A DNA stretch of 64,000 nt, taken from positions 1 through 64,000 of the forward strand of contig JADGOR010000002.1 in assembly GCA_017882855.1 (NCBI GenBank), in the 5' to 3' direction. The position numbers and the translations under genes were made by a program. Below the pieces are notes generated by a model, which was not told the DNA's origin, did not search any database, and was given only the letters and a program-made list of their open reading frames with translations. Below are positions 43,141 to 48,433 of this stretch, one piece after another. Numbering within the stretch: position 1 is the stretch's first letter; every line of letters begins with the position of its first letter. This DNA is from Cellulomonas sp. (GTDB taxonomy: Bacteria; Actinomycetota; Actinomycetes; Actinomycetales; Cellulomonadaceae).

Positions 43141-44775
43141 TCAGGGCGCCGAGCACCGAGGGTCAACTGTGCCGTCGCGGCTCATCAGCACGATGGGACC
43201 GTCGCGCAGCACCTCGCGGAACCCGCGGGCCTCGGCGTCGGCCATGGCGATCGCCGGGGCAGGGGCCTGCCAGCCGGTGGTGGTCTGGCTCAGGTCGAGG
43301 ACGAGCCACGTCGCCAGAGAGTCGGAGCGGGTCGGGAGGGTGACCAGCCAACCGCTGGTCAGGTGCGGTGCCATCCGGTCGTCGGCCTCGACGCACACGC
43401 TGCGCGGCAGGTGTGCGAGCACGGACTCGATCTGGCCGACCCGCGCGGGCCGGGTGAATGCGGCGCCGGTCAGCATCCGGTTCAACGGGTACATTGCCAC
43501 GCTCACCGCGGTGCCGACGACCACCGCACCCACGACCCAGGCGATCCACAGGTCGGGAATCCGTACGCTCAGGTACGTCGACCACGCGGCACGCCCGGGT
43601 CGACGGCTCCACCGCTTCACCGCCGGCGCAAGTCGACCGAGCGTGTCCACGGCTGCCATCACGATGATCGGAGCAGTGACCGCCGAGTAGTGGAACTCGG
43701 TCGTCCACAGGTAGGTCCGCGAGTTGAGCATGCGCTCGGCCAGGACGGGCAGCGCCAGGAGCAGGTACGGCGATGCGAACGCCGCGAACAGGGTCGGCAC
43801 GAACAGCATCGTGAGGGTGTGCAGCTTGACCGCGGGTGTCACGAAGAGTCGGGCCACGTCGATCGGATGCGTCACGGCGTACCTCAGTGCGCTCGGCAGG
43901 TCCTGGCCGAGTGCCGGGTAGTCCCAATATGCGAAGGTCCCGGTTGGCGCCACCGCCGGGATGAACACATCGGTGGCCAGCCAGAAGGTCAGGATGCCGG
44001 AGACGACGAGCGCGACCCCCGCCGCGCGCCCGGTGCGCAACCACCCGAACCGGCCGACGGGTGGTGCGGCGTCGTCGCGGCGGAGCGCAAGGATCACCCC
44101 CACCATGGCGACGACGGCCCCCATGTCCTCGCGTACCAACAGGAGACCCAGGCAGGCCAGGACGACGGAGCGCACGGCGCGCCGGTCCAACGCGTCGATG
44201 AGGAACGCGAGCAGCGGGACCGCGAAGGCTATTTCGTGGAAGTCGAAGTCGACCGCGCCCTGCAGCGGCCAGCTGAAGACGTAGGCCGCACCGATGGCGA
44301 GCGCGCGGGGCGTGCCGAAACGCCGCGCGGCAAACCGCACCACCGGGATCGCCGACAGCCCGAAGAGCGCGGCCTGCGCGAGGAGCAGCACTCGCGGGTC
44401 GCTCCACACCCAGTACACCGGGGCAAGCACGACCAGAATCGGGCTGAAATGGTCGCCGAGTACGCTGTAGCCGACACCCTTCAACGGTGCGACCGGCGCC
44501 TGAAAGTGCGAATAGGCGCGCACGGCCTGGTCGAAGAGCCCGAGGTCGTAGCCCGCCGTCAGGTACTGCGCGTGGCGCGACAGGGCGTAGGCGCCGTAGA
44601 TCGCGAACGCCGCCAGGGCCAGGAGGCATTCCCAGCCGAACGTCCGGGCGAGCCAGCGAGGGAGACGGCGCGCGAGCCACTCCGATGTGGCTGCAGGTAT
44701 CACCGAAATGCTCCTCGCCTGACTCTGGTTGGCCGACGAACGCCCGACCGGCGCGAGTCCTCGATGCCGGGTCAT
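43141..44775 (-). CDS. DUF2079 multi-pass membrane protein
   Basis: A 544-residue membrane protein with about ten spans. The family core is recognisable: YLTAGYDLGLFDQAVRAYSHF and GDHFSPILVVLAPVYW near the N-terminus, and later DFDFHEIAFAVPLLA and HYSAVTAPIIV. DUF2079 proteins resemble GT-C glycosyltransferases, which use lipid-linked sugar donors outside the membrane, but no activity is known. An AGGGTGG ribosome-binding site lies before the ATG at 44775; the open frame upstream of it is not protein-like. Confidence 0.86.
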   Translation of the reverse strand: MTRHRGLAPVGRSSANQSQARSISVIPAATSEWLARRLPRWLARTFGWECLLALAAFAIYGAYALSRHAQYLTAGYDLGLFDQAVRAYSHFQAPVAPLKGVGYSVLGDHFSPILVVLAPVYWVWSDPRVLLLAQAALFGLSAIPVVRFAARRFGTPRALAIGAAYVFSWPLQGAVDFDFHEIAFAVPLLAFLIDALDRRAVRSVVLACLGLLLVREDMGAVVAMVGVILALRRDDAAPPVGRFGWLRTGRAAGVALVVSGILTFWLATDVFIPAVAPTGTFAYWDYPALGQDLPSALRYAVTHPIDVARLFVTPAVKLHTLTMLFVPTLFAAFASPYLLLALPVLAERMLNSRTYLWTTEFHYSAVTAPIIVMAAVDTLGRLAPAVKRWSRRPGRAAWSTYLSVRIPDLWIAWVVGAVVVGTAVSVAMYPLNRMLTGAAFTRPARVGQIESVLAHLPRSVCVEADDRMAPHLTSGWLVTLPTRSDSLATWLVLDLSQTTTGWQAPAPAIAMADAEARGFREVLRDGPIVLMSRDGTVDPRCSAP

Positions 44776-44836
44776 CGCATCCACCCTAGAGGTGCCCCTC
44801 GGGGGTCCGGCCGCGCCGCCTGGGCACAAAGCGGGG

Positions 44837-45448
44837 CTACCCCCCAGAGGCCGGTGGGCCGGTCATAGGGCAGTGGTTGATGCTCGTGTCACTGTCGTTG
44901 CTGCTCGTGTCCTTGCTTCGGCTCGGCAGGTGCCGGTCCAGCTGGCGGGCACCGGTCCACGCGGCGAGCAGGACGCCCAGTGCGATGAGCACGTCGCCCA
45001 CGCTGAAGGTGTTGGCCAGGGGCAAGGGGGCGGGCCACGCGAACACGTCACCGAGCCAGGGCAGTGTCGGGTGGTCGATGACCGCGGAGTTGGCGAAGGT
45101 CGTGTGGGACTCGATCCCGGCCGAGGCAACCGCGCCTGCCGACGCGGGCAACACCCCGTTGTTGAGCGCGATGGTGATCCCGTTGGCAGCCGCTCCGGCT
45201 GCAACGAGCAGGATGCGGCGGATGTGCCGGTTCGCCCAGACGAACCCGAGCGCGACCAGGTAGGTCATCACGTGCAGGACCGGGGCGAGCTCTCCGGGCA
45301 GCGGGACCTCGACGACGACGACCTGGATCGCCAGCGCCGCCCAGATGAGCAGCGGCCAGCGCCAGCGGTGCAGGAGCAGGCCAGCGGGCCAACGCCCGGC
45401 AAGTAGCGGAGAGACCAGGGCGAGGGCGCAGGCGGCGAGCACCAGCAT
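44837..45448 (-). CDS. DUF5317 membrane protein
   Basis: A 203-residue protein with four to five membrane spans. It has an N-terminal span, PVLHVMTYLVALGFVWANRHI, and the segment ITIALNNGVLPAS, which is typical of DUF5317. Function unknown. It follows the GGDEF-EAL gene by 2 bases, so the two are translated together. The C-terminal 25 residues are polar (Ser/Asp/Asn-rich). Confidence 0.82.
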   Translation of the reverse strand: MLVLAACALALVSPLLAGRWPAGLLLHRWRWPLLIWAALAIQVVVVEVPLPGELAPVLHVMTYLVALGFVWANRHIRRILLVAAGAAANGITIALNNGVLPASAGAVASAGIESHTTFANSAVIDHPTLPWLGDVFAWPAPLPLANTFSVGDVLIALGVLLAAWTGARQLDRHLPSRSKDTSSNDSDTSINHCPMTGPPASGG

Positions 45449-45450
45449 CG

Positions 45451-47523
45451 TCAGCGGACCTCCGCGTGGCAGGGCGTGCCGCGCTGCTGTTCATCTCGCA
45501 GCCGCAGCAGGATCTGGTCGGCTGTGGTCGGCCGGCCCAGGTGGAAGCCCTGCCCGATGTGGCAGCCCAGGTCGCGCAAGGCGAGCGCGGTCTCCTCATC
45601 CTCGATGCCCTCCGCGACCACCCGCAGGCCGAGGTCTCGGGCCAGGGCGATGGTGGACCGGACGATGATGAAGTCATGGGTGTCGCGGCCCATGTCACTG
45701 ACAAAGGACTTGTCCACCTTCAGCTCGTCGACCTCCAGCCGCTTGAGGTAGCTGAGCGAGGCATGGCCGGTCCCGTAGTCGTCGACCGCGATCGCGACCC
45801 CGAGCGTGCGGAGTGCGCTGATGACCGCGTCGACCCGCGCGGGGACGGACAGGATTCCGGTCTCGGTCACCTCGAGCACCAGTGCACCCGGCGGGATGGA
45901 GTGACGGTCCAGCGCCTCGGCAACCTGGCCCGGTAGCGCGAGGTCGGACAGGTGGCGTGCGGAGAGGTTGACCGCCATGTGCAGGTCGTAACCAGCGGCG
46001 CGCCACTCGGCCAGGGTTCCGAGCGCGGTGTCGAGCACGTAGGCGGTGAGCTCGGCGATCAGCCCCGAGTTCTCGGCCAGTGGGATGAAGTTGTCCGGCG
46101 GCACCAGCCCGCGAGCGGGGTGATCCCACCGGATGAGGGCTTCCACCCCGACCGTCCGCGTGGTGATCAGGTCGACCTGGGGCTGGTAGGCCACATACAG
46201 CTCGGCGGTGCCGATGGCGGCCCGCAGGTCGGCGAGCAGCTGGAGCCGCTCGACCGAGTTGACGTCGAACTCGGGGGAGTAGGTGCTGGTACCGTCCCGC
46301 TCGAGCTTGGCCCGGTACATCGCGATGTCGGCGTTCTTCATCAGGGTCGTGACATTGTTGCCGTGCTCCGGCGCGACGGCGACTCCGGCGCTTGCCCGGA
46401 CCAGCAGCTCGAGCCCGCCCACCCGCATCGGGGCCTCGAGCGAGGCCAGCAGGTCACGGGCGAGTGCGGTGCTCTCGGCGAGACCGCCATGGACCACGAC
46501 AGCAAACTCGTCGCCGCCAAGGCGGTTGACGAGTGGGTTGTCTCCCAGTGCGGCGACCAAGCGTTGGGCCACCTGGAGAAGAAGTTCGTCCCCGACGCGG
46601 TGCCCGAGGGTGTCGTTGACGTCCTTGAAATGGTCAAGGTCGAGCAGTACCAGGCCGGGGCCGCGAGTCGGATCGCCGCGAGCGGCGATGAAGGCGCTGC
46701 CGAGCTGACTGAAGGCCAGGTCCCGGTTGCCGACCCCCGTCAACGAGTCGTGCGACGCCTGGTAGCCGTGCCGGATTGCCGCGTCAGTTGCCATGTAGAC
46801 GGCGACCGCTGGAGCGCACAGCAGCGCCAAGAACGCGATTCCACTCTCGGCGACGTTCGCGGCCACCGCTCCGATGCTGAGGAGTACGACCTGGGTGGCG
46901 GCGAAGAAGGCACCGTCCGCGCGGAGGATGTGACCCAGTGGCTGCGACACCGCGATCGCCACGACGATGGCCACGAGCAGCCGGTTGACACCAACCATCG
47001 CGATCCCGCCGGCGAGGAGCGGTACTAGAAGGGACATGTCCACCTTGACCGGCCCGCCGAAGAAGGGCACGCCGGCCAACGTGGAGAAGACCAGGCGGGC
47101 CGCGAGGACACTCAGGGTGTACTGCGCCGCGTTGAAGGCCGACTTCTTGAACTCTCGATGCCTGAGGATGTCGTCTGCCAGGCTGGCGACCACCTGGGTC
47201 AGGACGGCGAATCCGACTCCTCCGACCGAGACGAGAGCCAAGATGAACGGCGCGGAGGTCGAGATGGTCTCCGCAGGTCCGAAGGCCCGCGAGACGGCGA
47301 GCGGCTTCACCTCGCCCACGAAGGCGGCGGCGACGAGGAACGCCATCGGCCAGAGCGCGGCGCCGCTGAGGGGGGCGGCCCAGTCGGTGTTGACCATCGC
47401 GACGACGAAGCCCGCAGCGCCGAGGCAGGAGACCGGCAGGATGTAGGCAAGCAGAAAAAACGGCGGAGCCAGGATCCTAGCCCTGGCTCCGCCGTCGATC
47501 GGTCTGATCAGTTCCACTTCCAC
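45451..47523 (-). CDS. Membrane GGDEF-EAL protein (c-di-GMP cyclase/phosphodiesterase)
   Basis: A protein of up to 690 residues. Seven to eight N-terminal membrane spans (about 22-250) precede a GGDEF domain with an intact GGDEF (336-340) and an EAL domain with intact EAL (461-463, VGVEALIRWDHP) and DDYGTGHASLSYLK. Both synthesis and breakdown of c-di-GMP are possible. The GGDEF domain lacks an RxxD inhibitory site. The start is uncertain. The only in-frame starts are GTG 47523, which overlaps the small upstream ORF by 16 bases, and ATG 47397. The first span reads as real protein sequence, so the GTG is preferred; an intrinsic terminator then lies inside codons 10-23. Confidence 0.88.
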   Translation of the reverse strand: MEVELIRPIDGGARARILAPPFFLLAYILPVSCLGAAGFVVAMVNTDWAAPLSGAALWPMAFLVAAAFVGEVKPLAVSRAFGPAETISTSAPFILALVSVGGVGFAVLTQVVASLADDILRHREFKKSAFNAAQYTLSVLAARLVFSTLAGVPFFGGPVKVDMSLLVPLLAGGIAMVGVNRLLVAIVVAIAVSQPLGHILRADGAFFAATQVVLLSIGAVAANVAESGIAFLALLCAPAVAVYMATDAAIRHGYQASHDSLTGVGNRDLAFSQLGSAFIAARGDPTRGPGLVLLDLDHFKDVNDTLGHRVGDELLLQVAQRLVAALGDNPLVNRLGGDEFAVVVHGGLAESTALARDLLASLEAPMRVGGLELLVRASAGVAVAPEHGNNVTTLMKNADIAMYRAKLERDGTSTYSPEFDVNSVERLQLLADLRAAIGTAELYVAYQPQVDLITTRTVGVEALIRWDHPARGLVPPDNFIPLAENSGLIAELTAYVLDTALGTLAEWRAAGYDLHMAVNLSARHLSDLALPGQVAEALDRHSIPPGALVLEVTETGILSVPARVDAVISALRTLGVAIAVDDYGTGHASLSYLKRLEVDELKVDKSFVSDMGRDTHDFIIVRSTIALARDLGLRVVAEGIEDEETALALRDLGCHIGQGFHLGRPTTADQILLRLRDEQQRGTPCHAEVR
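47455..47494 (-). terminator. Strong intrinsic terminator inside the 5' end of the GGDEF-EAL gene
   Basis: The arms at 47461-47473 and 47482-47494 form a perfect 13-bp GC-rich stem (CGGCGGAGCCAGG) with an 8-base loop. On the minus strand it is followed at once by six U (47460-47455). This is the best Rho-independent terminator in the window. It lies 13 bases past the stop of the 36-codon ORF and inside the reading frame of the GGDEF-EAL gene. Confidence 0.9.
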
Positions 47524-47618
47524 CCAGCGCCGGCAAGTGCGGCAAGGGCGACGAGCGTGCCTACGCTCGTCGTCACGCGGATGATCGTGCTGTTCTTAAC
47601 GCTGCGCCACTTGTCCAT
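47508..47618 (-). CDS. Unannotated 36-residue small hydrophobic protein
   Basis: A small ORF with a good ribosome-binding site (GGAAGGGA, about 7 bases before the ATG). It starts MDKWRSVKNSTIIRV, has one hydrophobic stretch (about residues 11-31, rich in Val, Leu, Ala and Gly), and ends GAGWKWN. It could be a single-span membrane peptide. A perfect terminator follows 13 bases after the stop. It matches no family I know. It could be a true small protein or a leader peptide for the GGDEF-EAL gene, whose GTG lies inside its last codons. Confidence 0.65.
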   Translation of the reverse strand: MDKWRSVKNSTIIRVTTSVGTLVALAALAGAGWKWN

Positions 47619-47670
47619 GATCGATCCCTTCCACGGGGGGGTTGGCGTGTGCGACCGAAGCCGCCCCTGC

Positions 47671-47709
47671 CATGCCCCGACAACCCGAGGTGCGGATTCT
47701 CGGGGCATG
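47671..47709 (-). repeat. Perfect 10-bp inverted repeat upstream of the small ORF
   Basis: CATGCCCCGA (47671-47680) and TCGGGGCATG (47700-47709) are exact complements with a 19-base loop. On the minus strand this hairpin lies 53-91 bases before the ATG of the small ORF, so it could be an RNA leader structure or an operator. Confidence 0.6.
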
Positions 47710-47774
47710 CGCTTGCCATCCACTGGTCTGTTTGGCCGGCAAGGACGCGGCCATGGATAATCTTGTCGCGTCTG

Positions 47775-48157: not shown

Positions 48158-48232
48158 TGGTGGGCGATACTGGGATCGAACCAGTGACCTCTTCCGTGTC
48201 AGGGAAGCGCGCTACCGCTGCGCCAATCGCCC
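48158..48232 (-). tRNA. tRNA-Val(GAC)
   Basis: The minus strand gives a complete cloverleaf. The acceptor GGGCGAT pairs with ATCGCCC, the anticodon loop CTGACAC has anticodon GAC, and the T arm contains GGTTCGATCC. The CCA end is encoded (48158-48160). It is the last of three tRNA genes read leftward. Confidence 0.95.
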
Positions 48233-48239
48233 TCGTGCG

Positions 48240-48310
48240 AGGTGGAGATGGGATTCGAACCCACGTATACGGCTTTGCAGGCCGCTGCCTCGCCACTCGG
48301 CCACTCCACC
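48240..48310 (-). tRNA. tRNA-Cys(GCA)
   Basis: A minus-strand cloverleaf of 71 bases. The acceptor GGTGGAG pairs with CTCCACC, the anticodon loop CTGCAAA has anticodon GCA, and the T arm contains GGTTCGAATCC. CCA is not encoded. It lies 50 bases after tRNA-Gly and 7 bases before tRNA-Val. Confidence 0.95.
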
Positions 48311-48360
48311 ACCGAGGCCTTGCCCGTGACAGCTCCGGGAGCCTGGGGGTCTTGCCTCCG

Positions 48361-48433
48361 AGCGGACGACGGGATTCGAACCCGCGACCCTCACCTTGGC
48401 AAGGTGATGCTCTACCAACTGAGCCACGTCCGC
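48361..48433 (-). tRNA. tRNA-Gly(GCC)
   Basis: A minus-strand cloverleaf of 73 bases. The acceptor GCGGACG pairs with CGTCCGC, the anticodon loop TTGCCAA has anticodon GCC, and the T arm contains GGTTCGAATCC. It is the first gene of a Gly-Cys-Val tRNA operon, an order found in many actinobacteria. Confidence 0.95.

Follow-up and report, generated by a model that had tools for sequence, protein, structure and literature searches.

A small open reading frame (ORF) followed by a strong hairpin, both placed at the very beginning of a gene for a GGDEF-EAL enzyme of c-di-GMP, raises the question of what these two elements do for the gene that they overlap. A sequence-only reading of the window, that is, of the whole 64-kb stretch of DNA that was analysed, had proposed that translation of the small ORF and the terminator together decide whether the c-di-GMP gene is transcribed. 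The 36-codon ORF with a good ribosome-binding site that it described is present in both respects. The ORF starts at ATG 47618, stops at 47508-47510 and encodes MDKWRSVKNSTIIRVTTSVGTLVALAALAGAGWKWN (36 aa), and a Shine-Dalgarno sequence, GGAAGGG, lies 7 nt 5' of the ATG. The features of the locus are collected in Table 1.

Table 1. Positions, in the window, of the genes and RNA elements discussed in the text.
Feature	Position	Strand	Basis or remark
Small ORF of 36 aa, including stop; hydrophobic peptide with GAGxKW end	47508..47618	-	conserved in relatives
Conserved overlapping GTG, putative start of the GGDEF-EAL gene, inside the AAG-TGG of the peptide	47515..47517	-	frame open in 42/49 loci
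MASE9-type membrane domain + GGDEF + EAL protein	45451..47517	-	GGDEF, EAL and DDYGTG motifs intact
Conserved RNA hairpin, 16 pairs; with U6, a likely intrinsic terminator in this genome	47459..47496	-	stem, covariation, stability
U6 tract, nearly private to this genome	47455..47460	-	sequence and relatives
Structured 5' UTR, approximate extent	47619..47768	-	covarying RNA in relatives; no Rfam match
5' UTR hairpin P1, GGCCG-CGTCCTTGC-CGGCC	47734..47752	-	loop pairs with 47660-47671 (pseudoknot)
3' partner of the pseudoknot, GGCAGGGGCGGC	47660..47671	-	pairing with P1 loop
DUF5317 membrane protein, constant third gene of the unit	44837..45448	-	2 nt after the GGDEF-EAL stop

The same peptide is encoded immediately upstream of the homologous gene in Cellulomonas sp. 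APG4, Demequina sp. NBRC 110051 and an Actinomycetales MAG. A profile search, in which matches of E 0.003 and weaker were counted as chance, gave strong matches (E <= 3.4e-8) in 21 of the 222 genomes of the family. The peptide also occurs in 29 genomes at the level of the order, all of one genus that we call Demequina-like because its locus L114 shares the peptide and the downstream start with the Demequina record L003. Among aligned relatives the entropy at the three codon positions is 0.62, 0.53 and 1.04, and pooled pN is 0.24 versus a pS of 0.45, which indicates that the small ORF is coding; judged on these patterns, the peptide is under selection at the protein level. The GAGxKW motif adjoining the stop is the best-conserved part across families, and in the single-copy group the N-terminal K-W and the middle of the peptide are conserved as well, i.e., the peptide is conserved over its full length. 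Its hydropathy is compatible with one membrane span, and the peptide thereby joins the two attributes expected of a small membrane protein, conservation at the protein level and a single hydrophobic span. Given this conservation and hydropathy, the extra copies and the strict co-occurrence described below, the peptide itself is probably a functional small membrane protein. No profile match to the 36-aa peptide was found in Pfam, NCBIfam, PHROGs or PADLOC, and its assignment to a known peptide, phage or defence family was rejected on these searches. As for mobile carriage, one peptide had no match in plasmids and another had none in phages.

Starting 11 nt past the stop of the small ORF we found a hairpin of 16 pairs, two of them G-U, with a loop of 6 and followed by TTTTTT, in agreement with the stem and U6 tract previously noticed there. 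No other strong hairpin in the entire window has a U tract. A stem of 12-25 pairs is present in 44 of 48 loci, with a median start of 11 nt past the stop, and the median stem energy over all 48 loci is -37 kcal/mol. The four exceptions are L092, where the hairpin was lost by deletion and the genes were kept, L101, with a weak stem, L127, whose best simple stem lies elsewhere and whose usual site holds an interrupted one, and L136, which belongs to an array and does not adjoin the GGDEF gene. Across an alignment of 43 loci, the stem is paired in 88.2% of cells, versus 41-51% in slid controls, and double changes occur at all 19 stem pairs; changes on both sides were observed in 166 cells, versus 46 in shuffles. 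The stability of the stem region also exceeds that expected from synonymous resampling (mean z -2.34, with 28 of 42 loci below -2); in control stretches taken from these genes, the mean z was -0.16 and 8 of 168 lay below -2. Moreover, the stem is retained in L099, L115 and L130, in which the overlapping GTG frame is closed. Covariation, excess stability and retention of the stem where that frame is not open thus show that the RNA is under selection. The comparison with related genomes suggested along with the original proposal therefore gave a conserved peptide together with a stem that does not drift freely. Some hairpin loops (L114, L117, L121, L130, L133) and several Demequina-like 5' UTRs share a recurrent CTCAGC motif.

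Termination at the hairpin is likely in this genome; its U6 tract should terminate transcription, and hence the hairpin most likely limits read-through here. Four or more U in the next 8 nt were found in only 7 of 48 loci, and termination is doubtful in most relatives because the U tract is missing there. Attenuators of the trp and his type consist of a small ORF and then a hairpin terminator ahead of the main gene, and in this genome the layout is alike. In a classical attenuator, translation of the small ORF or stalling on it would toggle the hairpin between terminator and antiterminator, deciding GGDEF-EAL transcription, and the U6 terminator right behind a well-initiated small ORF, as well as a structured leader RNA, are in line with this. 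However, the locus differs from the trp and his systems in having no antiterminator, no run of control codons, an unconserved U tract and a peptide conserved as a protein. No mutually exclusive antiterminator structure was found: the 5' arm of the stem has no conserved upstream partner (mean z -0.50, with scattered positions), and the interior of the ORF has no RNA structure (z +0.47). In addition, the hairpin also stands behind peptide pairs that are not followed by a GGDEF gene. A nearly private U tract, the lack of an antiterminator and hairpins without a GGDEF gene argue that this is not a classical attenuator, an explanation that we consider unlikely, and the idea that peptide translation and terminator jointly decide transcription of the c-di-GMP gene is not supported, for the same reasons; the proposed mechanism is thus backed only in part. 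Conservation over the full length, arrays and standalone copies would be expected of a functional protein rather than of a sensing leader.

The GGDEF-EAL frame begins within the small ORF, where two GTGs are in frame, 47523 and 47517. The overlap with the end of the small ORF was thus correctly seen in the sequence-only reading, while the exact start, placed by it at GTG 47523, has to be revised, since only GTG 47517 is conserved in relatives, where it sits in the AAG-TGG codons of the conserved ...KW. The hairpin does lie within the GGDEF-EAL frame. No in-frame ATG, GTG or TTG between the stem and the first membrane helix (residues 21-45 of a model numbered from 47523) would retain that helix. 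Five loci (L098, L099, L101, L115 and L130) have a closed frame behind the overlapping GTG and must use another start. A hairpin that stimulates a -1 frameshift could fuse the peptide to the GGDEF-EAL protein, whose frame is indeed -1 with respect to that of the peptide, and the stem is strong and begins 11 nt after the stop; nevertheless, AAG-TGG-NNC-TGA contains no slippery heptamer and the frame relation is broken in loci that retain the stem, which makes such a fusion highly improbable. It was rejected for its lack of a slippery site.

Reinitiation at the overlapping GTG would be the simplest reading of this arrangement. Experimental precedent comes from the Mycobacterium tuberculosis ppe2 leader, with a B12 riboswitch, a translated uORF and termination-reinitiation (PMC11260477). 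Both loci have a structured 5' UTR, a conserved small ORF and a downstream start that overlaps the stop of the small ORF (PMC11260477), and the overlap of stop and start with an open downstream frame, as in a uORF of the ppe2 type, is present in most of the loci compared (Table 1). Unlike in ppe2, the small ORF studied here encodes a peptide that is shared between families and exists in additional copies, the overlap spans about 10 nt and contains a GTG instead of AUGA, a strong hairpin follows the stop, and the leader matches neither B12 nor any other Rfam family. The ribosome may otherwise be arrested: the invariant GAGxKW could stall it at the stop under some signal and so alter access to the overlapping start or to the hairpin. 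The position of the motif at the stop, as the best-conserved part across families, and a hairpin 11 nt beyond it would suit an arrest peptide; against it, conservation in the single-copy group extends to the N-terminal K-W and to the middle of the peptide, and standalone copies retain GAGxKW with nothing downstream to regulate. We give arrest only a small chance.

The leader upstream of the small ORF is structured as well. In the Cellulomonas-like group, the loop of hairpin P1 pairs about 75 nt downstream to form a pseudoknot, in which 92% of cells are paired versus at most 63% when slid (15 sequences), with double changes at 5 of 12 pairs. The Demequina-like group has an 8-bp hairpin and, close to the ribosome-binding site, a long-range helix, paired in 89% of cells versus at most 54% when slid, with double changes at 13 of 15 pairs. 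No Rfam covariance model matched the leader in the window or in 20 relatives, and a known riboswitch was rejected accordingly.

Regarding the enzyme, the N-terminal domain matches MASE9 (Pfam PF20972) in 25 of 27 homologues, aligned from correctly framed loci only, in likeness to MASE9 c-di-GMP enzymes, although the copy of this genome was not reported as MASE9 at the threshold used. The AF2 model of the domain is good (pLDDT 85.6), and residues 1-20, encoded by the hairpin, are predicted to be disordered. The best fold matches of the model in the PDB are ECF S-components and CbiM, weak ones (E 0.04-0.9) that are a hint only. Operon-encoded small membrane subunits are known, such as CydX, KdpF and AcrZ, or CbiN beside CbiM. 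They resemble our peptide in that a tiny hydrophobic protein is encoded together with a large membrane protein, and the weak likeness of the N-terminal model to ECF S-components and CbiM recalls the CbiN/CbiM pair; the comparison is one of gene layout rather than of sequence.

A third gene belongs to this locus. Strong DUF5317 matches were found in 21 of the 222 genomes of the family, and these are precisely the 21 that encode the peptide and the N-terminal domain of the GGDEF-EAL protein; 7 further genomes of the 222 have weak partial DUF5317 matches. In several families, DUF5317 was found downstream on the same strand in all 51 loci checked, at a distance of 2.10-2.45 kb in 50 of them; in G347, which lacks a GGDEF gene at this place, it directly follows the peptide. 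Peptide, stem and overlap are conserved together, which makes this a real and, as had been supposed, apparently undescribed unit: from the sequence comparisons, the peptide and its RNA elements form a conserved gene-and-RNA unit of Cellulomonas- and Demequina-like bacteria. The literature searched contained nothing for these genera about DUF5317, about MASE9 or about a small protein linked to c-di-GMP, no paper that pairs MASE9 with a peptide, and none that describes a partnership of a small membrane protein with a c-di-GMP enzyme and DUF5317. Downstream of DUF5317 there is a gene for a DUF2079 membrane protein (43141-44829).

The peptide is also found outside this arrangement. Related peptides that end in GAGxKW occur as tandem pairs in further families of the class, with a hairpin and a GGDEF-EAL gene behind them (L168, L169, L170, L176, L177), and a profile built mainly from tandem pairs recovers the peptide of the window at E 1.2e-7. 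Standalone copies, still with the hairpin behind them, occur in G640 (several tandem pairs) and G623. G556 contains ten tandem small ORFs (L167:2258-3652), three of full length and seven of 22-23 aa; the short forms, each with its own ribosome-binding site, keep the ends MDKW...GWKWN and lack the hydrophobic stretch. A plasmid of Euzebya pacifica, of another class, carries a 29-aa ORF ending in GAPQKWG (L211:1703-1792, NZ_CP031166.1) ahead of a diguanylate cyclase/phosphodiesterase gene and a DUF5317-EAL fusion gene; the ORF is absent from the gene table of the record, a table known to be incomplete. The amplified copies, i.e., the ten ORFs of G556, seven of which keep only MDKW...GWKW, and the tandem pairs of G640, together with the W/K-rich ends, might suggest a released signal or bacteriocin-like peptide with the membrane proteins as sensor or immunity partners. 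Most pheromones vary more between genera, and here little sequence variation between genera was found and no match to known peptide, phage or defence families; such a role therefore seems quite unlikely. The standalone pairs L171, L172, L173 (G640) and L174 (G623) are convergent to tRNA 3' ends (Val-Cys-Gly cluster, Asn, Asn and Leu, respectively), which hints at a mobile or integration-linked history of these pairs. In the window, a tRNA Gly-Cys-Val cluster (48158-48433) lies about 540 nt upstream of the small ORF, and the same trio flanks the L171 pairs.

Considering this evidence, we slightly favour a three-gene unit in which a leader and a small membrane protein are joined, by reinitiation, to a c-di-GMP enzyme, with an output-limiting hairpin and DUF5317. 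The tiny membrane peptide, the MASE9-type GGDEF-EAL enzyme and DUF5317 would be transcribed behind the structured leader RNA, and the peptide would be translated from its own good Shine-Dalgarno site. At the peptide stop, some ribosomes may reinitiate on the overlapping GTG 47517 and so produce the c-di-GMP enzyme. The hairpin would be a fixed RNA element, delimiting the peptide message at its 3' end and keeping the output of the enzyme lower than that of the peptide. With its U6 tail it would be, in this genome, a true intrinsic terminator, with partial termination, and the enzyme would be encoded by read-through transcripts only. The peptide would be a single-span protein located in the membrane, most likely as a partner of the GGDEF-EAL membrane domain and/or of DUF5317. 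The absence of a hydrophobic stretch in seven of the ten tandem copies of G556 speaks against this three-gene reading, as do the five loci with a closed GTG frame, the loss of the hairpin from L092 with its genes retained, and the missing U tract of most relatives. A broader proposal, which we regard as rather unlikely, is a self-contained peptide/c-di-GMP signalling module shared by part of the Actinomycetota and present in a divergent version in Euzebya. In it, the peptide would serve the MASE9-type GGDEF-EAL enzyme and DUF5317 as a ligand or an obligate subunit, a structured leader RNA of a new class would set the peptide level, and amplification would have given rise to arrays or standalone pairs in some genomes.

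c-di-GMP enzymes are common, and few inputs of their membrane domains are known. A tiny protein whose gene invariably accompanies such an enzyme and DUF5317, and overlaps the start of the enzyme, is a concrete and testable candidate for an input or subunit. The unit ties DUF5317, an unstudied domain, to c-di-GMP signalling and adds a covarying leader RNA outside the known families. It also represents a type of gene that annotation can miss, as exemplified by the copy in Euzebya.
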